Source: Paracoccaceae bacterium (GTDB taxonomy: Bacteria > Pseudomonadota > Alphaproteobacteria > Rhodobacterales > Rhodobacteraceae). From it: a DNA stretch of 64,000 nucleotides. Shown here in pieces: positions 2-13,753 of this stretch (positions within the stretch are counted from its first letter, which is position 1; the number at the start of each line of letters is the position of its first letter). The stretch is taken from the NCBI GenBank assembly GCA_947461435.1, contig CANHLE010000003.1:1-64000 (forward strand). The letters run 5' to 3'. The translations under genes and the position numbers were made by a program. Under the pieces are notes generated by a model. It was not told the DNA's origin. It saw only the letters and a list, made by a program, of their open reading frames with translations, and did no database searches.

Positions 2-1261
2 GCCCTGCAGGTGGACGGCACACAACAAAGGTTGTTCCTGTTTGGGGCCAGTTCCGCCCTGAGCATGAGTGTTATCAACGCGTCGGGCACGCCGGGTACG
101 GCGCAGTTGGTATCCACTTCCATCGGGTCACTGACCAAGGTCCAGACCTTTACCGTGGTGCCAGATTCCTTTGGTGATCTGACAGCCCTGTCGCGCAAGG
201 ATATCGCAGGCTTTCAGATTTTCGCGATCGGGGCGAATGGTTTTTTGACCCTGACCGCGACGATTCCGGACACGGGCAAATCCTATGTCAAGGATGTGGC
301 GGATTCGGCGTCGGTCTTGCTGGGCGGGCAGGCCTATCTGCTGACCATATCTGCGGGGGAGGCGGGGATGACCTGCTATACCGTCACGCCCCAAGGACAG
401 GCGGAGTTGAACGACAGTCTTGGGAATATTGACGGATTGGCGATTGCGGGGGCGGCGGCCTTGCAAACGGCGCAGGTTGGCGGGCAAACCTTTGCGATCA
501 TCGCCTCGGTGACCTCAAGCTCGCTGTCTGTCGTGCGGGTCAATGACATGGGCTGTCTGTTTGAAACCGATCATGTGGTGGATGACCACAGTTCGCGGAT
601 CAAGGGCGCATCTGCCTTGGATGTGTTCGAGGTTGGGGGCCGCGTTTTTGTGGTGGCCGGGGGCGCAGATGCGGGCCTGACAATCTACGAGGTCCTGCCC
701 GGCGGAACCTTGGGTCTGGTCAGTTCTGCCGCCTTTGAAACCGGACAGGGGATGGGCAACATCGCCTCGATCGACGCGGCGGTGAACGGGGATGTGGTGT
801 CGATTTTCGTGACCGAGGAAAGCGCGACCAGAGTGCAGGTTTTTCAATCGGATTTCAGTCAGTTGGGCAGTTTGATTGTGGCCACTGGCAACCAGACAAG
901 TGGAAGCGGGATGGATGACAGGCTGATGGGGCGCAGCAGCGCAGATACCCTGTCGGGCGGGGGAGGCGATGACTTTTTGCACGATGGCGCGGGCGCGGAT
1001 CGTTTGGTGGGCGGGGCGGGCGCGGATGTTTTCGTTCTGTGCGCCGATACATCAACCGATACGATTGCAGATTTTGAAAACGGGACCGACCGAATTGACC
1101 TGTCGGATTGGGGTCGCATTTACGCGGCGTCGGATCTGACGGTGGCCCAGACCGCAACGGGCGCGCAGATCAGTTTTGGCGGCCATGTTCTGGTGGTCAA
1201 CAGTTCAAACGGCGCGCCGCTTTCGGCGGGGGCGTTTACGGATGCGGATTTCATTTTCTGA
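2..1261 (+). CDS. RTX (hemolysin-type calcium-binding) repeat protein, 5' partial
   Basis: The reading frame is open to the left edge, so the N-terminus lies outside the window; a GTG at 11 is only the first possible internal start. The visible ~415 residues are a repetitive beta-rich region of unknown function. They are followed, about 305-345 residues in, by glycine/aspartate repeats of the GGxGxD type (GGGGDDF, GGAGADVF) and a closing segment DTIADFENGTDRIDLS. This C-terminal arrangement is typical of calcium-binding proteins exported by type I secretion. The last residues (ADFIF) resemble the hydrophobic end of such secretion signals. It is likely secreted or surface-bound. No catalytic domain is visible in this part. 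A different RTX gene sits at the other end of the window. Confidence 0.85.
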   Translation, partial: ALQVDGTQQRLFLFGASSALSMSVINASGTPGTAQLVSTSIGSLTKVQTFTVVPDSFGDLTALSRKDIAGFQIFAIGANGFLTLTATIPDTGKSYVKDVADSASVLLGGQAYLLTISAGEAGMTCYTVTPQGQAELNDSLGNIDGLAIAGAAALQTAQVGGQTFAIIASVTSSSLSVVRVNDMGCLFETDHVVDDHSSRIKGASALDVFEVGGRVFVVAGGADAGLTIYEVLPGGTLGLVSSAAFETGQGMGNIASIDAAVNGDVVSIFVTEESATRVQVFQSDFSQLGSLIVATGNQTSGSGMDDRLMGRSSADTLSGGGGDDFLHDGAGADRLVGGAGADVFVLCADTSTDTIADFENGTDRIDLSDWGRIYAASDLTVAQTATGAQISFGGHVLVVNSSNGAPLSAGAFTDADFIF

Positions 1262-3822: not shown

Positions 3823-3846
3823 ATGGTGCTGCAAGAGAGGATTGAA
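3823..3846 (+). repeat. Island boundary direct repeat, tRNA-distal copy (att site)
   Basis: This is a 24-bp exact copy of the last part of the tRNA-Thr gene (complement of the CCA end, acceptor strand and 3' T-arm), identical to 13678-13701. Homology to the tRNA stops abruptly after it. It is what remains of the original tRNA end, displaced by insertion of the island. Confidence 0.88.
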
Positions 3847-4263
3847 TTCGATGAGTTTCTCTGGTTAGCATTGATTTTATTGCATAATTTCGAGATGTCT
3901 GCAAGCGTGGTGTAGCACCCGAGTGTGGCATCGAAACAATGTTCGGTTTTCGCTCTCAAGACCTCGGTGGACACCTATCGGGGTGGTGTGGCCTGCAAGC
4001 GGGGAGCCGTTAAACGCTGGAGCCCGGTCATTTTCTTGCAGAGGGCGATCAGCAGCGTCCCGACGACCCGCTTTTGGACGGCCTTGGCATTGGTCTTGTC
4101 ACTCGGCAGGACCAGTTTGTGGAGGCCCACAAGAGAGGCGTAGATTTTGGGCAAGCCATTGAATTTGCTTCACCGTGCCCTAGCTATGAGGTCCTTGAGG
4201 TAAGTTTGCGGGCTCAAGAAACCCCATCAACGCAAATAAGCCCCAATAGCAGGTAGAGTCTCA
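3847..4263. other. Gene-poor left end of the island
   Basis: No convincing gene. The first part is AT-rich. It contains the near-palindromic 11-mer GGTGTAGCACC at 3909-3919, which recurs at 13612-13622 next to the other boundary. Open frames between 3925 and 4260 have no recognisable domain and no good ribosome-binding site. They may be decayed mobile-element sequence. Confidence 0.5.
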
Positions 4264-4560
4264 GTGAAAACTTTCGTTTATGACATTTGGAACTTTGTGT
4301 TCAATCATGAAACCAGTCCTCTTCGGCACATCCCTGACGTTGCGACGCGGCACTATGTGTTGCAAGCATTAGCCTTGATGTGGGCAACGGTTTTTTCAGT
4401 CGCTATCGGCAGTTACACCGTGTTTGGTATAAGTGTCTTAGGCCATGCTGTACTAATCGCAGCGGCCGCGATCACCGTTGCAACCTACTCGACAGCCGCA
4501 GTTAAACCCCAAATGTTTGCACGATTTGCATCGCGCCGGATCGACGGTGAGCACGAATAG
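4264..4560 (+). CDS. Small two-helix membrane protein of unknown function
   Basis: A 98-residue protein with a soluble N-terminus (about residues 1-30) and two hydrophobic helices (about 32-55 and 57-80), followed by a short basic tail ending in FASRRIDGEHE. I do not recognise a family. Coding likelihood rests on the clean amphipathic layout and an ATG start; the preceding sequence GTAGAGTCTCAGTG contains only a weak GAG. It lies inside the island between the boundary repeat and a broken transposase, so it may itself be a passenger or a remnant. Confidence 0.55.
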   Translation: MKTFVYDIWNFVFNHETSPLRHIPDVATRHYVLQALALMWATVFSVAIGSYTVFGISVLGHAVLIAAAAITVATYSTAAVKPQMFARFASRRIDGEHE

Positions 4561-4592
4561 GGCTCGCTCCTCGTGTTATTTCGGTTGGTAGA

Positions 4593-4778
4593 TCAGAAAG
4601 CGGAAGAGCCTGTTTGGTCATCGCCCTCAGCATCGGACAGGCGGGCCAAGACTGCGTGTGCAAACTCAGCGACTTCGCTCTCTTCACCCAGTTGGATGTC
4701 GTCGGCGTTGAAGCCATCATCCGCTTTGCCGAAGCCGTAATCGCTGGCCGACTTATCGCCGCCCACGACAGACATCAC
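4593..4778 (-). pseudogene. Possible gene fragment, acidic protein tail
   Basis: A 61-codon minus-strand frame with a coding-like, strongly acidic composition (segments DDGFNADDIQLGEESE and LSDAEGDDQTGSSAF). It has no recognisable full domain and runs into the truncated left edge of the transposase remnant. It could be the C-terminal end of a gene cut by the insertion sequence. Family unknown; I cannot exclude a chance frame. Confidence 0.25.
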
Positions 4779-5253
4779 CTACATCAAGACTCACGAGGGT
4801 TGGCCATACCTGTCTGTGGTCATCGACCTCATCTTGCGGCGTGTGGTCGGATGGTCCGCCCAGCCCAGCATGACAACCGACTTGGCGCTGCAGGCCTTGC
4901 TTGCGGCTGTCTGGCGGCGAAAGCCCAAGGCAAAAGTGATGATCCATTCAGACTAAGGATGGCAGGTCACCAGCCGCAAGTGGCAGCTATTCCTCAGCCA
5001 ACACAATCTAAAGGCCAGTATTTACCACCGCGGAACCTGTCCTGGCAATGCGGTCGCCGAAAGCTTCTTGCAACTCATGAAGCGTGAACGCATTCGCCGC
5101 CGCACGTACCTGACCCGCGGTGCAGCAAGGCAGGACGTCTTCGACTACATCGAGATGTTCTGCAACCCGAAGCGAAAGCACCCGAACAACGCAATGCAAT
5201 CGCCTGTTGCCTTCGAAATCAGACAACAAAAACTGAAAGAGGCAGGTGTCTAG
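4771..5253 (+). pseudogene. IS3-family transposase (OrfB) remnant with nonsense codon
   Basis: About 160 codons of an IS3-type DDE integrase core. They begin abruptly at DITYIKTHEGWPYLSVVIDL and end at the normal C-terminus (SPVAFEIRQQKLKEAGV in typical relatives, here QSPVAFEIRQQKL). All three acidic residues are present (Asp in DITYI, Asp in HSD, Glu in AVAESF). An in-frame TAA at 4954-4956 stands where relatives have Gln in HSDQG. The OrfA helix-turn-helix and the N-terminal part of OrfB are missing. It is inactive and shows that the island has been through insertion-sequence turnover. Confidence 0.82.
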
Positions 5254-5351
5254 GAAACTGCGGGCATTTCATTCGTTTCCCAAGCAGACATACGAAAGGC
5301 CTCTCCTGCGTCGTCAAATTCCGTTTGGCGAATGGGAAACAGGGCTATTTT

Positions 5352-6056
5352 TCAATTGGGAATAGCTCCAAACTTTGGATCGTATCTCATGGACATAGGA
5401 ACTCCTGCCAGTGTCGCAAACGATGACAGTTTCTCCAAAATGATGAACTCCGACTTGAATTCGTGAGCCAGATTTGTACGGCTTTCTTCTGACAGCCGGG
5501 TTGAGTCCGTCGCCTGGCGACGGTTGAGTGTCAAGCTGGGATAGAAACCCATATGTCTTTCAAAATCTGATGATAAGCGCTCCATACAAATCACTGCGAC
5601 AATCTGGTCTGGCCGGATATTGTCCAGAAGAGAGTCGAGATGCCACTGGAAACCCGTTGAGACGTGGCCAATCAACCTCATCAAAGACGAGGTTGTGTTT
5701 ATACCCTGACGTAATTCGCTCCCAAGGCACTCTGCGAGTGCATTGGCATTATCGAAGTGGAGGAGGAGTTCCCGCTCCGTACTGTGGCGCAATTCAATGA
5801 GTTGATTTTTTTGCTTATCGTAGGTAAGCTTTCCGTCCATATATAGATGTTTTCTCCAGTTAAAAGCGGAAACGAAACGCTCCAACGGATCGCGGACTAC
5901 AATCATATATCGGCCCTTAGGGTTAACTACTGGCCGTCGCACATGAAAATATTCGAAACGGTAATCCTTCGCTCGAAGCTCAGACAAAACGGTACTACCA
6001 CCACATTTTCCGACATGAATAAAATTAAAAGGTGTGTCCGGCGAGAGCAACGGCAT
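5352..6056 (-). CDS. Sulfotransferase family protein
   Basis: A predicted PAPS-dependent sulfotransferase of the short membrane-independent type. The 5'-phosphosulfate loop FIHVGKCGGSTV is at residues 12-23 and the 3'-phosphate motif MIVVRDPLERFVSAF at 51-65 (Arg55, Ser63). An ATG at 6080 is also in frame. I prefer 6056 because GGAG lies 9 nt before it and the P-loop then sits at the usual distance from the N-terminus (234 residues). It is the only full cargo gene on the minus strand, divergent from the next sulfotransferase. The acceptor is unknown; the neighbouring glycosyltransferases make a glycan likely. Confidence 0.83.
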   Translation of the reverse strand: MPLLSPDTPFNFIHVGKCGGSTVLSELRAKDYRFEYFHVRRPVVNPKGRYMIVVRDPLERFVSAFNWRKHLYMDGKLTYDKQKNQLIELRHSTERELLLHFDNANALAECLGSELRQGINTTSSLMRLIGHVSTGFQWHLDSLLDNIRPDQIVAVICMERLSSDFERHMGFYPSLTLNRRQATDSTRLSEESRTNLAHEFKSEFIILEKLSSFATLAGVPMSMRYDPKFGAIPN

Positions 6057-6435
6057 CTTCCCAGTCTCCATATACTTCATTACTATGAGTATATAACATT
6101 GAGTAATGCTGTACAGGTGGCATCTAGACTTACAGGCACGTTATGGTGATTAAATATCACAAAACATTTTTGAACAACAGTCGCACCCAAACGGCGGCCA
6201 ACCCTTACCAATGGGAGATTTGGCAACTAAGATCGGTGATATCGCTGAAGTTCAATTTTGACCTGCCGGTTAATGCCTTTATCATAGGAAAGCGCTTATC
6301 GTTTTTCCCGATGTTACCGAAAAAGGATTGCAAGCGCGATTTACGCTGTTCTATTCTGGCGTGCGCGAATTGCGGCCAGCGCTTGCTCACCTTCTCGAAT
6401 TGAGATAGAGTATTGGTTAGGCTGGAAGGACTTCA
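6057..6435. other. Intergenic region between divergent sulfotransferase genes
   Basis: AT-rich, and must contain the divergent promoters. At 6274-6408 (+) a stop-bounded stretch of 44 codons reads in protein-like fashion (VFPDVTEKGLQARFTLFYSG, then RELRPALAHLLELR, then stop). It lacks a start codon and may be the decayed C-terminal end of a lost gene. Nothing else recognised. Confidence 0.4.
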
Positions 6436-7233
6436 ATGCGCTTAAATGAAAAAATATTTCTGCTTGGTGTTGGAGCGCAGAAAGCCGGGACGACTTGGTT
6501 GCACCGAACCTTGCGTGCCAGCGATACGGTTAATTTTGGCATCGCGAAAGAATACCATATTTGGGACGTGCTATACACGGACCAGTTTCAGGAACTAAGG
6601 CCATCCGGCGAACCACCCCCCCCACATCCAGATCGCGATCGAATCCGCGACTTGATGCGGCGCGAACCAGGGTATTATGCAGAGTACTTCAATAGGATTC
6701 TGGCATCAGGTGTTCGCCTCACGGGCGATATCACACCTGCCTATTCCGCACTCAGCGCAGAGGACTTCATAAAGGTTCGCAGCCAGTTGGCAGCTATAGA
6801 TGCTAAAATACGCGTCGTTTTTTTGATGCGCGATCCCTTTGAGCGATGCTGGAGTGCAATCAGAATGATCAAGCAGGTCAAAAGAATCACTGAGCCGGAT
6901 GAATCATTGCTCTTGGCGAAATATACGACAAAGGATTTCTCTATGCGTACCCGCTATGACCGAACGATACAGAATCTCCGAGAAGTTTTTTCCGAAACGG
7001 AGCTGTATTTTGGCCTCTACGAAACCCTTCGCGAAGAAAGCCAGCTTCGTCGGTTATCGGAATTCCTGGGGGTCAACATCGACAGATCGATAGTACACAC
7101 CTTACATAATTCTTCGCCGAAGATCGAAAAAATTTCGTCCGAAACGAGGAAAGTCGTTCAAAGCTTCTATTCTGAGGTTTATGATTATTGCTGGAACGAA
7201 CTACCGGGGGCACGACAACATTGGTTCATTTGA
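6436..7233 (+). CDS. Sulfotransferase family protein
   Basis: 265 residues. The PAPS 5'-phosphosulfate loop is LLGVGAQKAGTTWLHRTL at 9-26, with the exact QKAGTTWL pattern of heparan-type sulfotransferases. The 3'-phosphate motif VVFLMRDPFERCWSAIRM is at 127-144 (Arg132, Ser140). An AAGGA ribosome-binding site is 6 nt before the ATG. Relatives act on glycans or other hydroxyl/amine acceptors. The position among glycosyltransferases suggests it decorates the polymer or oligosaccharide made by the island. Expected in the cytoplasm; no signal peptide or membrane segment. Confidence 0.88.
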   Translation: MRLNEKIFLLGVGAQKAGTTWLHRTLRASDTVNFGIAKEYHIWDVLYTDQFQELRPSGEPPPPHPDRDRIRDLMRREPGYYAEYFNRILASGVRLTGDITPAYSALSAEDFIKVRSQLAAIDAKIRVVFLMRDPFERCWSAIRMIKQVKRITEPDESLLLAKYTTKDFSMRTRYDRTIQNLREVFSETELYFGLYETLREESQLRRLSEFLGVNIDRSIVHTLHNSSPKIEKISSETRKVVQSFYSEVYDYCWNELPGARQHWFI

Positions 7234-7474
7234 AGTTAATGATAAGAACTTATTCTAGGCGTCTTTTGTTCGTGAGTGGTAATGGAAATTACCATCTTTT
7301 CTGCGAACGGTTTGGGAAAATTATCTAATGGAACCATCAGTGAACTTTCTTTTAAATCAACGGCCCCAAGGCCCCCTTAAGGTAATACATCTGGACGGGC
7401 GATTTTATCGGATAGTTTGCCTGCTTTCACGGATCTACACCCGACCCGGTAAGTTCTGATCTTAAGGAGATTAG

Positions 7475-8416
7475 ATGGAAAAGAAGGCTGAGATCATAAA
7501 ACCAAGCATACTATTCCACCGGAACTATCTTAGATTTAGGGGTGGGCATCTAAAGGTATTCGACTATTTTAACCACGCAAAGTTTTCCGATCAGTATCAC
7601 CCAGAGATTTACCTCACGCCGCAGAGTTGTTTGATTCATCCGTGGGTGGGTGAACCAAGGATCAAAGATCATTACAATCCCAAATCAGCAAGCATTCTAT
7701 TTCTTGCTGGTATGGATTGGACAGCACTGTCGGCATATCCCGACATTGAAAATAGCATTCCTGTGGTCAACTTGATCCAAGGATTTAGGCATTCGACTCC
7801 AAGTACTGCGCTTTTCCGCCTCCTTCGTCGTCGTGCAATTAGGATTTGTGTCAGCGATGAGTTGGCTATGGCGCTAGAGGCGACTGGAATTTGCAATGGA
7901 CCGATCTATGTTATTCAGAATGGGATCGACCTTGGGTTGTTGCCCAACAGCAGATGTCTTGGCTCTGAGACGATCTTCATAGGTGGCGTTAAGCAACCTT
8001 CATTAGCCTCGGCTCTTGCGGAACGACTGCGGGCGCAAGGTTATGCGGTCAACTGCCAGACAAGCCACATTCCCAGGAGCGAATTCCTTGAGCAACTTTC
8101 ACGATCAAAGATTGCTGTTCTGCTTCCTTTGGAGACAGAGGGCTTCTTTCTTCCCGCACTCGAGGCTATGGCTATGGGTATCGCTGTAATTTGCCCGGAT
8201 TGCGTTGGTAACCGTTCGTTCTGCGTTGACAAGCAAACGGCATTGATGCCCCTACTCGATCTTGAATGTTTGGAGGCGGCTGTGAAGCTACTTTTTCTCA
8301 ATCCAGGGCTCGCTGCCGCACTTTGCAGCAAGGGCAAAGAGATGAGTCTGCGGCATGATATCCGCACTGAACGCAACATGTTCCTGAACATCCTGCATCA
8401 AATTCGACCGCAATGA
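7475..8416 (+). CDS. Glycosyltransferase, GT4-like (group 1)
   Basis: A 313-residue GT-B fold transferase. A middle segment VIQNGID (146-152) and the donor-binding motif EGFFLPALEAMAMGIAVICPD (222-242, with the E-x7-E pair Glu222 and Glu230) are typical of group 1 enzymes. It is shorter than most (usually 350-400), mainly in the N-terminal acceptor domain. AAGGAG stands 7 nt before the ATG. Its stop codon overlaps the start of the next sulfotransferase (ATGA), so the two are translationally coupled. This supports sequential action: sugar transfer, then sulfation. Donor and acceptor unknown. Confidence 0.83.
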   Translation: MEKKAEIIKPSILFHRNYLRFRGGHLKVFDYFNHAKFSDQYHPEIYLTPQSCLIHPWVGEPRIKDHYNPKSASILFLAGMDWTALSAYPDIENSIPVVNLIQGFRHSTPSTALFRLLRRRAIRICVSDELAMALEATGICNGPIYVIQNGIDLGLLPNSRCLGSETIFIGGVKQPSLASALAERLRAQGYAVNCQTSHIPRSEFLEQLSRSKIAVLLPLETEGFFLPALEAMAMGIAVICPDCVGNRSFCVDKQTALMPLLDLECLEAAVKLLFLNPGLAAALCSKGKEMSLRHDIRTERNMFLNILHQIRPQ

Positions 8417-9246
8417 CGGCAAAGAAAGCACAGAATATCTTGTTAACGGGCCTGCCGCGATCTGGGACAACCCTAGCCTGCAATCTGTTAAACAGGATTC
8501 CAAACAGTGTAGCCTTGCATGAACCGATGCCGCCGACCTTGTTGCTACGTCTCGGTCCCGCAGGATTGCTGGAAGAAATTCAGCGATTCTTCTCGGAACA
8601 ACGGCTCCAAATCCTCATGCATGGGACGGCCAAAAGCAAAGCAAAGGATGGGATGGTTCCAACCAATCCTCTTTCTGAGGCCGATGCAAATGGCAAAAGA
8701 GATTTTGTTTTGAATGGTAAGGAAATTAGAGTTCCTAATGTGAGCAGCAACGACTTCGACCTGTACATTAAACATCCAGCCTTTTTTACGGGTGCGCTTT
8801 CCATATTGGCCAGCCAATTTATCTGTTTTGCGATTATCCGTAATCCATTGGCGATTTTATTGTCTTGGCGGGCAGCTGGCATGCCTATTACCGCTGGACG
8901 CTGGCCTTTGGCAGAGAAGTTCAATCCGGTCCTCGCAAAATCGCTTGAAGCAGAAACCGACGTGCTGCAAAGACAACTGATCATTCTCAATTTCGGTTTC
9001 TCACAATTTCTTAAGTTTTTGCCGGGGCGTACAATAAAATATGAAGAAATTATTGCGCTCTGTGGCCGCGCTCTTGCGCCGATGAATGTTTCAGCCCTGC
9101 ATCTCAATGAGCCGCTTGAGTCTCGCAATCTTCTGGGAATCCGTTCCGATCCCGCCGCCCGCGCGGTCGCAGAGCGGCTTCTTGGACATGATTCCGCCTG
9201 TTGGTCCTTTTATCAAAGGGCGGATGTCGAGGCGCTGCTGTGCTGA
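8413..9246 (+). CDS. Sulfotransferase family protein
   Basis: 277 residues. The P-loop ILLTGLPRSGTTLACNLL is at 9-26 (the PRSGTT form seen in many bacterial sulfotransferases) and the 3'-phosphate motif FAIIRNPLAILLSWRAAG at 139-156 (Arg143, Ser151). The start ATG overlaps the stop of the glycosyltransferase upstream by the ATGA arrangement. Codon use is that of the island. The acceptor is unknown; coupling with a glycosyltransferase favours a carbohydrate. Confidence 0.84.
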   Translation: MTAKKAQNILLTGLPRSGTTLACNLLNRIPNSVALHEPMPPTLLLRLGPAGLLEEIQRFFSEQRLQILMHGTAKSKAKDGMVPTNPLSEADANGKRDFVLNGKEIRVPNVSSNDFDLYIKHPAFFTGALSILASQFICFAIIRNPLAILLSWRAAGMPITAGRWPLAEKFNPVLAKSLEAETDVLQRQLIILNFGFSQFLKFLPGRTIKYEEIIALCGRALAPMNVSALHLNEPLESRNLLGIRSDPAARAVAERLLGHDSACWSFYQRADVEALLC

Positions 9247-9632
9247 AAAGGACCGGGCCCGCATTTATTTTCTGGTTCAGTTGTACATTCTGCACATATT
9301 TTGACACGCGGCGTTGGGTTCGGGTGCGCTCTGAGAAAACTTTTGTTCTGGCGCACGACATTAGTCTTCGCTGCGATCGACCGGACGGTCGGCTTATGAG
9401 CGCGGCGTTGGAAAATGTTGGCGAAAAAGTGCCGAAGCGATTCTTCACGCCTGGCATTTAAAAACGTACGCGAAGCCTGGCTCATAATGCTTGCTCTTTA
9501 TCGGCGGCCGAAGCCTCTTGAAAATCAGATGCGGTTCAGAAATGTCAAAACGAATTGATCTAGTCAGCCTTGAATATCGCTAGGGTATGATGTAATAAAA
9601 AATAATCGTAATGCTGGAAAGTAATCAATCTG
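9247..9632. other. Gene-poor interval inside the island
   Basis: About 386 bp without a supported gene. A plus-strand open frame continues to 9461 with a cysteine/aromatic-rich stretch, but it has no start signal or family resemblance. The stretch just before 9633 is AT-rich and is the likely promoter region of the next gene. Confidence 0.4.
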
Positions 9633-10529
9633 ATGTCCGAGCTGCACCTTTCGGTGGTCGTTGTGTTTCGGAATATGACAAGGGAGGCAACGCGAACTCT
9701 CTTTACATTAAGTCCCCTTTATCAACGTTTGGTGGCGGACTGTGATTACGAGGTAATTGCCGTTGATATCGGTTCCGAGATACCATTGGAGCTGGAAGAA
9801 GTAAGACAATTTGCTGGCAATGTGCGCCTAATGCGGTTTGCGGACGCACCTTCTCCGGTTGCTGCAGTCAACGAGGCGGTTCTACACTCTCGCGGCCGCG
9901 CTGTATCTATAGCGATCGACGGAGCGCGCATGCTTTCCCCAAGGGTCCTCTACTTTACACTGCAGGCGCTTAAGGCTTACGAGAACCCCGTTGTCGGCAC
10001 GCTTTCTTGGCATCTTGGGCCGAAAGTTCAACAATTATCTATGCTTGACGGTTATGATCAATCCGTTGAGGATCGTCTACTTGAGACGGTAAACTGGAGA
10101 AAAGACGGCTACGAGCTCTTCAAAATAGCAAGTCTCGCAGCAAGCAGCAGCAAGGGATGGTTCGGCCCAATTTCAGAAAGTAATTTCCTGACTATTCGGC
10201 GCGAGGCATGGCGTGATTTAGGCGGATTTGACGAGCGGTTCAGAACACCCGGCGGTGGATTTGCGAACCTCGACTTCTACCGCGAAGCCTGTGACAGACT
10301 CGGCCAGCTCGTGCTTCTTTTGGGCGAAGGCACTTTTCACCAGTTCCACGGCGGCGTCTCTACGAATGCGCCGCCCTCCGCACATCCTGGTGCAGCATTT
10401 CGAGCCGAATATTTCGACATTCGCGGAAAGCATTACCAAAACCCCACCCTAGCGGCCGAATACATCGGGGCTATTCACCCTCAAACGTACAGATTTTTTC
10501 CAGACAATGTAGTCGAAGGTTCGAAATAA
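9633..10529 (+). CDS. Glycosyltransferase family 2 protein
   Basis: 298 residues with a GT-A type N-terminus (LSVVVVFRNMTREA at 5-18), an acidic donor-site stretch AVSIAIDGARML near 90-101 and the later GGFDERF segment near 195-201, where GT2 enzymes contact the acceptor. The canonical DxD is replaced by IDGARM, as in a subset of family members, so activity is probable but not certain. Start ATG at 9633; the purine-rich GGAAAG upstream is rather distant. It is separated from the previous and next genes by gaps of several hundred bases, so it may have its own promoter. Confidence 0.8.
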   Translation: MSELHLSVVVVFRNMTREATRTLFTLSPLYQRLVADCDYEVIAVDIGSEIPLELEEVRQFAGNVRLMRFADAPSPVAAVNEAVLHSRGRAVSIAIDGARMLSPRVLYFTLQALKAYENPVVGTLSWHLGPKVQQLSMLDGYDQSVEDRLLETVNWRKDGYELFKIASLAASSSKGWFGPISESNFLTIRREAWRDLGGFDERFRTPGGGFANLDFYREACDRLGQLVLLLGEGTFHQFHGGVSTNAPPSAHPGAAFRAEYFDIRGKHYQNPTLAAEYIGAIHPQTYRFFPDNVVEGSK

Positions 10530-10726
10530 TGCAGGCAATGCGTTCAAGGCTGCATCCTAACTTCTAGTTCGCTTTAACATTATCTGCACAAGGAGAATCT
10601 CAATGCGGACGCAAGTAACTATCGGGAAGGCTTTCTGATTTTGCGGCATCAAGGAAAACTTTGTTGCGCCCGCGCCGTCAAAATTGACCTACGAGACGTC
10701 GTGGCCAAGCGCGGCATATTCAAATC
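10530..10726. promoter_or_regulatory. Intergenic region before the fusion gene
   Basis: 197 bp with no gene. It must hold the promoter of the long fusion gene. I see no confident -35/-10 pair or terminator. Confidence 0.3.
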
Positions 10727-12811
10727 GTGATAGCCAGTTCGGTAGAACGCAGGGCCCTCGTGGTTCTTGGTATGCATCGCAGCGGTACGTCAGCGCTGGC
10801 CCGAGTGCTTGTCATGGCCGGCGCTTCTCCGCCAAAGACACTCATGGCTGCCAACAGTGATAATCCGGGCGGATACTGGGAATCGACTGAGATTACGCAA
10901 TTCAACAACAGACTCCTTGCAAAAGCCGGCATGCGGTGGAGCGATCATGCACCTATTCCCCAAGCATGGTTTTTCGAAACGGCACGCGATGATGACCGGA
11001 AAGAAGCCAAAAACCTGCTCCAGCAAGAGTTTGGCCATTCAGATTGCTTCGTGCTAAAGGACCCACGCATCTGCAGGCTCCTTCCGTTTTGGTTGGAAGT
11101 GCTTTCGGACTTTGGAATCGAAACTCATATTATTACGATTGGCCGCGACCCTTTGGAAGTTGCGTGCTCTCTTGCAGCACGTGCCAAGGTTCCGGTCTTT
11201 CGACCTGCTTCTATCGAAGATCTTGAGGTCGGCCTGATGCTCTGGTTTAGATATATGCTGGACCTTGAGCGACACTCGAGACACTTGCCGCGAACGCATG
11301 TTTCTTATGCTGACCTGGTTGCCGACTGGCGAACCAGCCTACGCTGCTTCTTTTTGTCATCGCGGCTTCCATTCCCCTCGCCCGAAGACTCAGCCGCTAT
11401 TGATGCATTCATTGATCCGTCGTTGCGAAGGCAACAGTCTGATGCAGATTGCCCGAATGCCGTTGCTCCTTCCATCTTGGAATTCGTGAGGCAAATCGAA
11501 ACGCTGATTTGTTCACAGGACATAAGCGCATCTGCAGAACAACTTGATGTATTGGATAAGTTGCTGGACGAGGCATATTCGCTTTCTGACAGCAAAAATT
11601 TCCCAACAAAAAGCTTTGTGCCAGCAAGATTGACGGCACAAATCGCATTTGCTCACGTTGTCGCTCTAAGCGGAACATTTGATGGCCTAAGCCAGCGCCC
11701 TCGCGTTGCGCTCTTTCTGTCTGGGTCAGCGAAAAGTATAGGGCATGTCTACCGGGTCGAACATCAGATAGCTGCGTTGCTCGCAAATGGCTGGCAGGCC
11801 TACTGGCTGCCCGTCGAAGATGTCCGCGCCGCTTCGGCAGCAAGAGGCGCGGACATGGTTGTCACATTTCGTGCGCCGTGGAACGCTGCCCTAAAGGATA
11901 TTGCAACAGTATGCAGGCGCCAAAATATCCCACTTGTCTATGATATAGATGACCTAATCTTCGACCCCGCCATGATTGAAGGTGGCGAGATTGCCTTTTT
12001 GAATGACAAGTCTCCAGAAGTTCGAAGCATTTGGCGTGCTAACGCTGTTTTGCTTCGCACCGCCATTGAGTCTTCGGATTTTGCGGTTCTAACAACGGAG
12101 CCGCTCGCCGCGGCAGCGATGGAAATTAACCCGAACTGTTTCGTCGTTTCCAATGCCTTGGGCCAAGGAATGGAGAATATAGCAGCGAAGGCTGCCGCCC
12201 TTCCGAAACTTTCGAACGCCGACGGTATAGTTCGGATGCTTTTTGCAAGCGGAACGCCGACGCATCGACGTGATTTTTTGGTCGCGCTTGATGCTGTTGT
12301 TTCGGTGCTCGATAGAAACCAAAACGTCCGGTTGCGCCTTATCGGGCATATCGACCCTTGGCAATATCCGCAACTTTCCACGCGACGCGAGCAGATAGAA
12401 CAGGTTGACCGCGTTAATCTTGAGAAACTTTTTGAGGAGGTGGCGATCTGTGACATCAATCTTTGTCCACTAGAAGTTGGCAACCCCTTCTGCGAATCCA
12501 AGAGTGCCGTACGCTGGCTTACTGCAGCCTCCGTAGGGGTTCCGACCGTTGCATCTCCTACTGCACCTCTTCAGGCGGCAATTTTGCATGGCCATAATGG
12601 TCTTCTTGCCGCAAATGCGGACCAGTGGCGCAACGGTCTCGAACACCTCATTCGCGATGCAAGTCTTCGAAACGTGATGGGCCAACATGCAAAACGGGAT
12701 GCTATGGCACAGCATGGATTCGATATTTGGAGCCGTCGAGTAGCGGCAACATACGCATTGGTCTTGACCCTGAAATCGGATCGCATGGCTGACTCGCACG
12801 AGGATTCTTGA
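10727..12811 (+). CDS. Sulfotransferase-glycosyltransferase fusion protein
   Basis: 694 residues in two parts. Residues ~10-215 are a sulfotransferase: P-loop LVVLGMHRSGTSALARVL (11-28), FVLKDPRICRLLPFW (108-122) and 3'-phosphate motif ITIGRDPLEVACSLAAR (136-152, Arg140, Ser148). Residues ~324-690 are a GT4-like glycosyltransferase: RPRVALFLSGSAKSIGHVYR, then VYDIDDLIFD (404-413), NALGQG, and a donor segment ending VGVPTVASPTAPLQAAI. A helical linker (~215-322) joins them. The GTG at 10727 is the first possible start after an upstream in-frame stop. The fusion suggests one glycan receives both a sugar and a sulfate from one polypeptide. Domain families are clear; substrates are not. Confidence 0.85.
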   Translation: MIASSVERRALVVLGMHRSGTSALARVLVMAGASPPKTLMAANSDNPGGYWESTEITQFNNRLLAKAGMRWSDHAPIPQAWFFETARDDDRKEAKNLLQQEFGHSDCFVLKDPRICRLLPFWLEVLSDFGIETHIITIGRDPLEVACSLAARAKVPVFRPASIEDLEVGLMLWFRYMLDLERHSRHLPRTHVSYADLVADWRTSLRCFFLSSRLPFPSPEDSAAIDAFIDPSLRRQQSDADCPNAVAPSILEFVRQIETLICSQDISASAEQLDVLDKLLDEAYSLSDSKNFPTKSFVPARLTAQIAFAHVVALSGTFDGLSQRPRVALFLSGSAKSIGHVYRVEHQIAALLANGWQAYWLPVEDVRAASAARGADMVVTFRAPWNAALKDIATVCRRQNIPLVYDIDDLIFDPAMIEGGEIAFLNDKSPEVRSIWRANAVLLRTAIESSDFAVLTTEPLAAAAMEINPNCFVVSNALGQGMENIAAKAAALPKLSNADGIVRMLFASGTPTHRRDFLVALDAVVSVLDRNQNVRLRLIGHIDPWQYPQLSTRREQIEQVDRVNLEKLFEEVAICDINLCPLEVGNPFCESKSAVRWLTAASVGVPTVASPTAPLQAAILHGHNGLLAANADQWRNGLEHLIRDASLRNVMGQHAKRDAMAQHGFDIWSRRVAATYALVLTLKSDRMADSHEDS

Positions 12812-13188
12812 CGTAAGCTACAGGCCCGATGCTGATTTTTCCGGGGAGATGATCAAATTGGGTATCGCTAGGTTCGAAGGCCACAAGCAATTTACAGCCG
12901 AGGGCCGAGGGTTTTGGGAAAGTGTTTGTAAGGGCGCTTTAGGAACTAGAAGAGGTTTGACTGGACCTCGCGCTGGTTTTTCCATCTGCGCCCCGACTAG
13001 GTCAGTCTCTAAAGCATGGAAGAGGCTTTGGACGGCGGTATTCTATTTGCAAAGTGCACCTTGATGCCGACTGTCGGGTTTTTTTAGCTTCCGCTTCTCA
13101 ACCGCCAACAGGAAGAAAAGCTTTACGAAGGCAAGGTATTTCGGACGGACAGTTCGAGCCGCTAGCCCGTTATTATGAGCTACTCCCC
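12812..13188. other. Gene-poor interval with possible terminator
   Basis: No supported gene. A 71-codon frame at 12849-13064 has no family resemblance and a weak start. At 13066-13086 a short GC hairpin (CCGACTGTCGG) is followed by seven T, a plausible but weak terminator for the fusion gene. The rest looks like degenerate filler before the IS3 remnant. Confidence 0.4.
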
Positions 13189-13400
13189 TGACGTTGCCCC
13201 CAACTTTTATCCAGTGTGAGCGAGACTCCGGGTTTGAGTTTTGCTCATTTGGGCGGGTTGGGCAACGGGGGCTGGCGCGGAGCTTTTCGGGTTGCGCAGC
13301 GACGGGCCCCGTTGCGGGGTGAAGGTCTGGGCGGAGGCTGCAGGGGTCTGCCAGCCGAGGAGGGAGTGGGGGCGTTCGCTGTTGGTCTTGTCGCGGTTTG
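13189..13400 (-). mobile_element. IS3-family element remnant (transposase C-terminus and terminal repeat)
   Basis: The minus-strand frame ending at 13207 reads ERPHSLLGWQTPAASAQTF and then TPQRGPSLRNPKSSAPAPVA, the C-terminal end of an IS3-family OrfB (the RPHSxLG signature after the catalytic Glu). Its stop is followed by CAACTTTTGGG-type sequence ending in TGACGTTGCCCCC at 13189-13201, which looks like the IS terminal inverted repeat. About 60 codons remain. The rest of the element is deleted and the break joins integrase sequence at about 13400. It is a different IS from the one at 4771-5253. Confidence 0.75.
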
Positions 13401-13598
13401 GTGCCGCTCCCAAATGATCGCTTGTTCTTGTGCGATCACCGGATGGCGCAATTTTGCTTCTGCGGGGTCCTTGGTGCGCAACGAGCTGCTAACGATCTTG
13501 TCACCCAAGACCGTGCGCAAGTCTGAAGGGGTGCGTTGCCGAAAATAGTAGACACCCGTCCTTGGATGTTTGTAGGGACGTGTCATTTGCAATACCAT
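13400..13598 (-). pseudogene. Truncated site-specific (tyrosine) integrase, N-terminal DUF6538 domain only
   Basis: The first ~60 residues (TRPYKHPRTGVYYFRQRTPS, DLRTVLGDKIVSSSLRTKD, AEAKLRHPVIAQEQAIIWER) match the N-terminal domain of phage-type tyrosine integrases common in Rhodobacterales. The frame then runs out of homology at about 13400, where IS3 sequence begins. The catalytic R-H-R-Y domain is gone. The gene starts about 80 bp from the 3' end of tRNA-Thr and reads away from it, the normal place for the integrase of an island using that tRNA. Start at 13598 or 13586. Confidence 0.78.
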
Positions 13599-13611
13599 AA
13601 TGTAGCACCTT

Positions 13612-13622
13612 GGTGTAGCACC
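13612..13622. repeat. GGTGTAGCACC motif near the right boundary
   Basis: An 11-mer with inverted-repeat ends (GGTG/CACC; TTGGTG-TAG-CACCAA when extended). It occurs here, in part again at 13601-13609, and at 3909-3919 close to the other island boundary. The paired positions suggest recombinase or excisionase arm sites. This is inference. Confidence 0.4.
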
Positions 13623-13678
13623 AAAGACAACCTAAGCCCTTATAAACACGCAACTTCTTGATTTTATAGAAAGAAATA

Positions 13679-13753
<75 letters not shown>

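Follow-up and report, generated by a model that had tools for sequence, protein, structure and literature searches.

A tRNA-Thr island of a Paracoccaceae bacterium carries a putative transferable glycosyltransferase-sulfotransferase module for sulfated cell-surface glycans

A 64,000-nt stretch of a Paracoccaceae bacterium genome (contig CANHLE010000003.1; hereafter the window) contains four sulfotransferase (ST) and three glycosyltransferase (GT) domains, spread over six open reading frames (ORFs) at 5352-12811. The block is best explained as the cargo of a putatively horizontally acquired, now immobile island in a tRNA-Thr gene. A tightly coupled gene pair within it, GT4a-ST3, recurs with partner genes in other genomes, and the best reading of this recurrence is a non-random, apparently transferable module. 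On balance, the module would probably make a sulfated cell-surface polysaccharide. The six ORFs and their predicted products (aa, amino acids) are as follows.

5352..6080, minus strand: ST1, Sulfotransfer_2-like sulfotransferase, 242 aa; PF03567 at 20.6 bits, near threshold
6436..7233, plus strand: ST2, sulfotransferase with a GAQKAGTT motif, 265 aa; PF00685 and PF13469 above cut-off
7475..8416, plus strand: GT4a, GT4-type glycosyltransferase, 313 aa; PF13692, PF00534 and PF13439 above cut-off
8413..9246, plus strand: ST3, sulfotransferase overlapping GT4a by ATGA, 277 aa; sulfate-donor motifs, structure model and Foldseek
9633..10529, plus strand: GT2-like glycosyltransferase, 298 aa; PF10111 at 20.9 bits, below cut-off
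10727..12811, plus strand: FUS, an ST (about residues 1-290) fused to a GT4 (about 310-690), 694 aa; PF13469 and PF13692 above cut-off

An initial annotation, made from the sequence without database searches, had placed the four ST and three GT domains together here, and Pfam, model and motif evidence for the six ORFs bears this out. It had also described two genes overlapping by ATGA, which are GT4a and ST3 (a stop-start overlap at 8413-8416), and two catalytic types joined in one protein, which is FUS, where the GT4-type Pfam match covers residues 506-644. Its statement that each GT is of a different kind has to be given up, as the types are GT4, GT2 and GT4. In the GT4a alignment (A3), EGF-LPALEAMA is conserved. 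The GT2-like protein falls short of the PF10111 cut-off of 27.3 bits and has relatives at 38-56% identity, among them one in genome G332 (47%). Relatives of ST2 were found in many genomes of the window's family, the best at 42-44%. No NCBIfam family reached its own cut-off with any of the six proteins, and the gaps among the ORFs held no recognizable gene, the single gap peptide that was run against Pfam giving no match. When ST positions were placed at random in a simulation, the chance that four STs of a total of 10-15 would fall inside one 6-kb stretch of the 3.78-Mb genome was about 1e-5.

The four ST domains are putative enzymes dependent on 3'-phosphoadenosine 5'-phosphosulfate (PAPS), with sulfate transfer as their predicted activity. 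In line with the initial annotation, the 5'- and 3'-PAPS motifs are legible in all four, the 5'/3' pairs being GVGAQKAGTT/LMRDPFERCWS, GLPRSGTT/IRNPLAILLS, GMHRSGTS/GRDPLEVACS and HVGKCGGST/VRDPLERFVS. In the structure and family check that the annotation had proposed, ST2 and FUS were placed in the ST family by Pfam, and ST3 solely by its structure model and Foldseek, since PF13469 matched ST3 at the N-terminal end only (18.2 bits against a cut-off of 27). The ST3 model had a mean predicted local distance difference test score (pLDDT) of 88, and Foldseek ranked tyrosylprotein sulfotransferases bound to PAP (3'-phosphoadenosine 5'-phosphate) first (E 2e-5, probability 1.0), with a TM-score of only about 0.4, a value that carries no information on the substrate of ST3. 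Across an alignment of 11 ST3 sequences, G13, the R-S-G-T-T loop at R16-T20, R143 and S151 are invariant. For ST1, PF03567 stayed just under its cut-off of 22 bits and structure prediction gave no confirmation, the pLDDT of 45 being too poor to use. Searches of ST1, ST2, ST3 and FUS against the PDB by sequence returned nothing useful, and a scan of the genome collection with FUS alone gave no match.

The block lies within an island that the initial annotation had missed, marked by low GC content, mobile-element remnants and the following features.

3823..3849, no strand: left 27-bp direct repeat of the tRNA-Thr 3' end, a putative attachment site; 26/27 identical to 13678-13704
4769..5253 (approximate), plus strand: DDE (rve) transposase remnant with an internal stop; Pfam rve E 2.6e-18, rve_2 E 7e-8
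13259..13609 (approximate), minus strand: truncated integrase remnant, N-terminal DUF6538 only; PF20172 E 1.2e-16
13678..13704, no strand: right 27-bp direct repeat within the tRNA-Thr 3' end; 26/27 identical to the left copy
13679..13753, minus strand: tRNA-Thr (GGT), the insertion site; ARAGORN, Rfam RF00005 at 64 bits

The two repeats stand 9855 bp apart, and the island borders are therefore 3823-13704, wider than the 5352-12811 first described. The island has a GC content of 50.5%, its two flanks have 61.7% and 59.4%, and the value drops as low as 45-53% over the interval from 5 to 13 kb. The fragment beside the tRNA is read as an integrase from its DUF6538 domain, which we take to stand at the head of tyrosine integrases. 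No catalytic domain follows in the same frame and no intact integrase adjoins the tRNA, so that the island is a remnant. The arrangement of tRNA-Thr next to MurA was kept in all nine relatives scanned; the right flank is therefore probably ancestral and the block an insertion. In the same nine relatives the left flank was not found beside tRNA-Thr, and an empty left junction was thus not recovered.

To locate relatives of the module, species genomes were scanned with the GT4a alignment, which yielded 16 loci. ST3 directly followed GT4a on the same strand in ten of these (L099, L100, L101, L102, L103, L105, L109, L112, L113, and L114). An ATGA overlap identical to that of the window was shared, the window included, by six loci, the others belonging to Puniceibacterium antarcticum (L099), Aquibium carbonis, and three metagenome-assembled genomes (MAGs) named as Sphingomonadaceae, Rhodocyclaceae and Syntrophales; at four other loci the junction was a short overlap or a gap. 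A GT4a-ST3 fusion suggested by a long ORF in L100 was rejected, as the two genes lie in different frames with the ATGA overlap. The distance matrices of GT4a and ST3 correlate (Mantel r 0.87, 0/5000 permutations). Furthermore, a third ST of the GxQKxGT type, scored by motif (in L101 and L114 by sequence and Pfam), lay no more than 3.5 kb from GT4a in 12 of the 14 loci examined, and the two pairs where none was seen stand near contig ends. This third ST is fused to ST3 in L105. The Rhodocyclaceae MAG (L102) holds counterparts of all six gene types: the ST-GT4 fusion recurs at full length (43% over FUS residues 3-680), a GT2 (56%) that is itself fused to an ST adjoins it, and a PF03567 ST is also present. 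Hosts of the pair comprise Alpha-, Beta- and Gammaproteobacteria, a Syntrophales MAG and an actinomycete MAG; some loci are MAG contigs whose named host may be wrong, and Puniceibacterium, Aquibium and Marimonas are isolates. Tight coupling of the pair in such different bacteria suggests that the gene set is probably a portable toolkit for making sulfated cell-surface sugars. GT4a had no relatives in viral contigs or plasmids, so that an origin of the pair from phages or plasmids is not supported.

The initial annotation had called such a set uncommon in this group. This applies to GT4a, which occurs in 3/397 genomes of the window's family, and fails for STs, which occur in 55/61 family genomes. 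Its description of the host as marine-type was not upheld either, the single congener found (G001) being a MAG named for Lake Erken. Neither the coupled GT4a-ST3 pair nor its distribution turned up in the libraries and literature searched; sulfated surface glycans with clustered STs are already known.

Several observations weigh against one transferable module for a surface polysaccharide. The block is not one operon: ST1 lies on the opposite strand, and most of the remaining genes are 200-390 bp apart. The island itself holds no exporter, polymerase, initiating GT, nucleotide-sugar gene or PAPS gene, and its integrase and transposase are eroded to remnants. In the congener (L103 5415-6650), GT4a and ST3 stand in one frame and the ST3 part has internal stops. 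In other genomes, the genes related to ST2, GT2 and the fused ST often stand at a distance from one another. Two alternatives draw on these points. The genes could be accessory decoration enzymes collected singly in an insertion hot spot, each modifying a host glycan without forming a single pathway. The large gaps, the reversed ST1, the insertion remnants and the differing distributions of the relatives of each gene would fit this, as would the neighbourhood of the L099 pair, which is likewise rich in STs and contains short transposase-like ORFs; the joint recurrence across classes of the pair with the third ST, and in L102 of all six gene types, argues against it, and we regard it as quite unlikely. 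It is still harder to credit that the island is decaying and its genes are out of use. The truncated integrase and transposase and the broken ST3 of the congener point that way, but all six ORFs of the window are full length, their PAPS motifs are intact and the GT4a/ST3 overlap is preserved.

The gene neighbourhoods of the relatives partly support the sulfated surface glycan proposed in the initial annotation, which is still the best reading. The order in L112 is GT4a-ST3-ST followed by an ATP-binding cassette (ABC) ABC-2 permease and an ATPase, placing an exporter directly behind the set, and in L114 the ABC-2 permease and ATPase come first, followed by STs and GTs. Both ATPases best match galactan/teichoic export models (Wzt/TagH-like), at scores below the cut-offs of those models. 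In addition, relatives of the FUS ST domain adjoin sugar transporter and ABC exporter genes on Rhodobacteraceae plasmids. Nothing obvious as an export or secretion context was seen at L099, L101 or the window.

A further point against a polysaccharide is that the module in L113, L124, L125 and L126 has type II secretion-like genes and a gene for an exported protein as its neighbours, not a glycan exporter. These type II genes were read from pseudopilin N-terminal motifs, apart from GspE of L124, which is the only one confirmed by Pfam. In L124 and L125, type II secretion-like genes come first, then the exported protein and, about 70 bp after it, ST3; in L126 tetratricopeptide repeat (TPR)-like genes stand between the exported protein and ST3. 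GT4a and a GxQKxGT ST are close by in all three, with FUS-like STs near in L125 and L126. Pseudopilin-like genes and a signal-peptide protein lie upstream of GT4a in L113, and five paralogues of this protein occupy the same place in L109. Such neighbourhoods lend support to the alternative, already raised in the initial annotation, that the glycan is a sulfated oligosaccharide attached to a secreted surface protein of the surface (S)-layer or fibre type, that is, protein sulfoglycosylation. For Slr4 and NpdA, the S-layer genes are known to lie next to dedicated type II clusters (PMC7821379, PMC10765051), and the solved folds nearest to ST3 are tyrosylprotein sulfotransferases, although at the TM-scores obtained these say nothing of the substrate. 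L112 and L114 have glycan exporters instead. In the window's genome the type II pseudopilin T2SSG was not found, nor was a relative of the L109-type protein in a search run without a positive control. Because the exported proteins of L124-L126 and of L109 and L113 have no Pfam match, the S-layer label is one of location and composition. Taken together, protein sulfoglycosylation is an unlikely alternative to the sulfated polysaccharide.

The exported proteins of L124 (9993-11372), L125 (3051-4820) and L126 (14411-17525) are related to one another at 24-38% and are S-layer candidates. At L109 11328-14411 (Marimonas arenosa) and L113 12576-15647 (Tateyamaria), large proteins that combine an ArsP-type permease, FG-GAP repeats and an UnbV_ASPIC domain adjoin GT4a-ST3-ST.

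Candidate genes for export and for sulfate activation lie elsewhere in the host genome. This fits what the initial annotation had said on the lack of export genes and on a glycan that may be made elsewhere. Contig C20 carries a KpsM-like permease, a KpsE-family protein (TIGR01010 at 206 bits, below the cut-off of 437) and a KpsT-like ABC ATPase, along with UDP-glucose dehydrogenase (UGD), an ST-GT2-GT4 protein of 1208 aa and a 1091-aa protein with an ST-like N-terminus. Two VexA-like polysaccharide export proteins are encoded on C34 and C166. The single adenosine 5'-phosphosulfate (APS) kinase lies on C17 and so not within the GT/ST cluster. Compared with an ABC-transporter-dependent sulfated capsule locus, the island has GTs and STs together, whereas an exporter and PAPS synthesis are absent from the locus. 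Further STs are encoded on C70, C82 and C116. The ST on C116 (L062, 1749-7899) has a WsaF-like GT and a protein of 838 aa next to it and ORFs of transposase-like and RTX-like type in the vicinity, and on C70 (L089) two ST genes lie close together and adjoin a gene that reads as an alkaline-phosphatase-superfamily enzyme.

We propose that soluble GTs, working at the cytoplasmic face of the membrane, add sugars to a carrier-linked glycan and that PAPS-dependent STs would sulfate it in the cytoplasm, with ST3 acting on the product of GT4a. Cytoplasmic assembly is the simplest scheme because hydropathy analysis of the six proteins revealed no obvious membrane span. GT4a and ST3 would be made together by translational coupling, the stop-start overlap suggesting matched amounts. 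Supporting the notion of coupled reactions, ST and GT domains are fused in several ways (in the window, L102 and C20, and by motif in L125). The product would then be exported by machinery encoded elsewhere, most likely the KpsM/E/T-like exporter of C20, to yield a sulfated cell-surface polysaccharide. On gene neighbourhoods, a broader idea may be entertained, though we doubt it: GT4a-ST3 and the third ST could be an undescribed transferable sulfoglycosylation core that is plugged into either a glycan exporter or a type II/surface-protein locus, so that some bacteria would bear sulfated surface-layer glycoproteins. If the module is what it seems, a small mobile GT-ST pair would provide a sequence handle for finding sulfated glycans widely, as well as a compact two-gene unit for the joint assay of sugar transfer and sulfation.

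Sulfated polysaccharides have been reported from few bacteria, namely cyanobacteria and some marine bacteria, a Vibrio and a Cobetia among them, and are suspected in Actinoplanes (PMC8205485, PMC11641403, PMC11766843, PMC13390465). In the marine Vibrio sp. KMM 8419, whose sulfated capsule is chemically proven, a predicted cluster combines an ABC transporter with GTs, STs and PAPS genes (PMC11641403). The island resembles this cluster by gene content, both having GTs, PAPS-dependent STs and mobile elements in the locus; unlike the island, the Vibrio cluster includes genes for an exporter and for nucleotide sugars as well as cysNDC, and nuclear magnetic resonance was used to solve its polysaccharide (PMC11641403). 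The Synechan xss cluster on a plasmid of Synechocystis 6803 is likewise similar by gene content, with two STs of distinct subfamilies and several GTs that serve a sulfated exopolysaccharide, but it encodes a complete Wzx/Wzy pathway and regulators, and mutants of it were tested (PMC8205485). Closer to the window's host, clusters on Rhodobacteraceae plasmids (Cereibacter sphaeroides 2.4.1 pA, Rhodobacter sp. CZR27 and Phaeobacter sp. G2) hold relatives of the FUS ST domain at 37-45%, and the Cereibacter cluster also encodes a protein 28% identical to ST1; in contrast to the island, the plasmid collection contained no full-length ST-GT4 fusion. A literature search on STs in Rhodobacteraceae glycan loci found nothing specific. 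The clusters beside the module in L124-L126 are laid out like the type II/S-layer loci of Slr4 and NpdA. This likeness is one of layout; no such cluster is present in the window, and the main text on these loci contains no ST or glycosyl- term (PMC7821379, PMC10765051). ST3 has an N-terminal PAPS motif in common with the NoeE-type Nod-factor ST (residues 10-48), but it scored 19.4 bits against a cut-off of 500 with the NoeE NCBIfam model and so falls outside that family, and the island has no nod genes. The end of the contig upstream of the island (window 11-1261) encodes an RTX calcium-binding protein and then a GalE-like epimerase.

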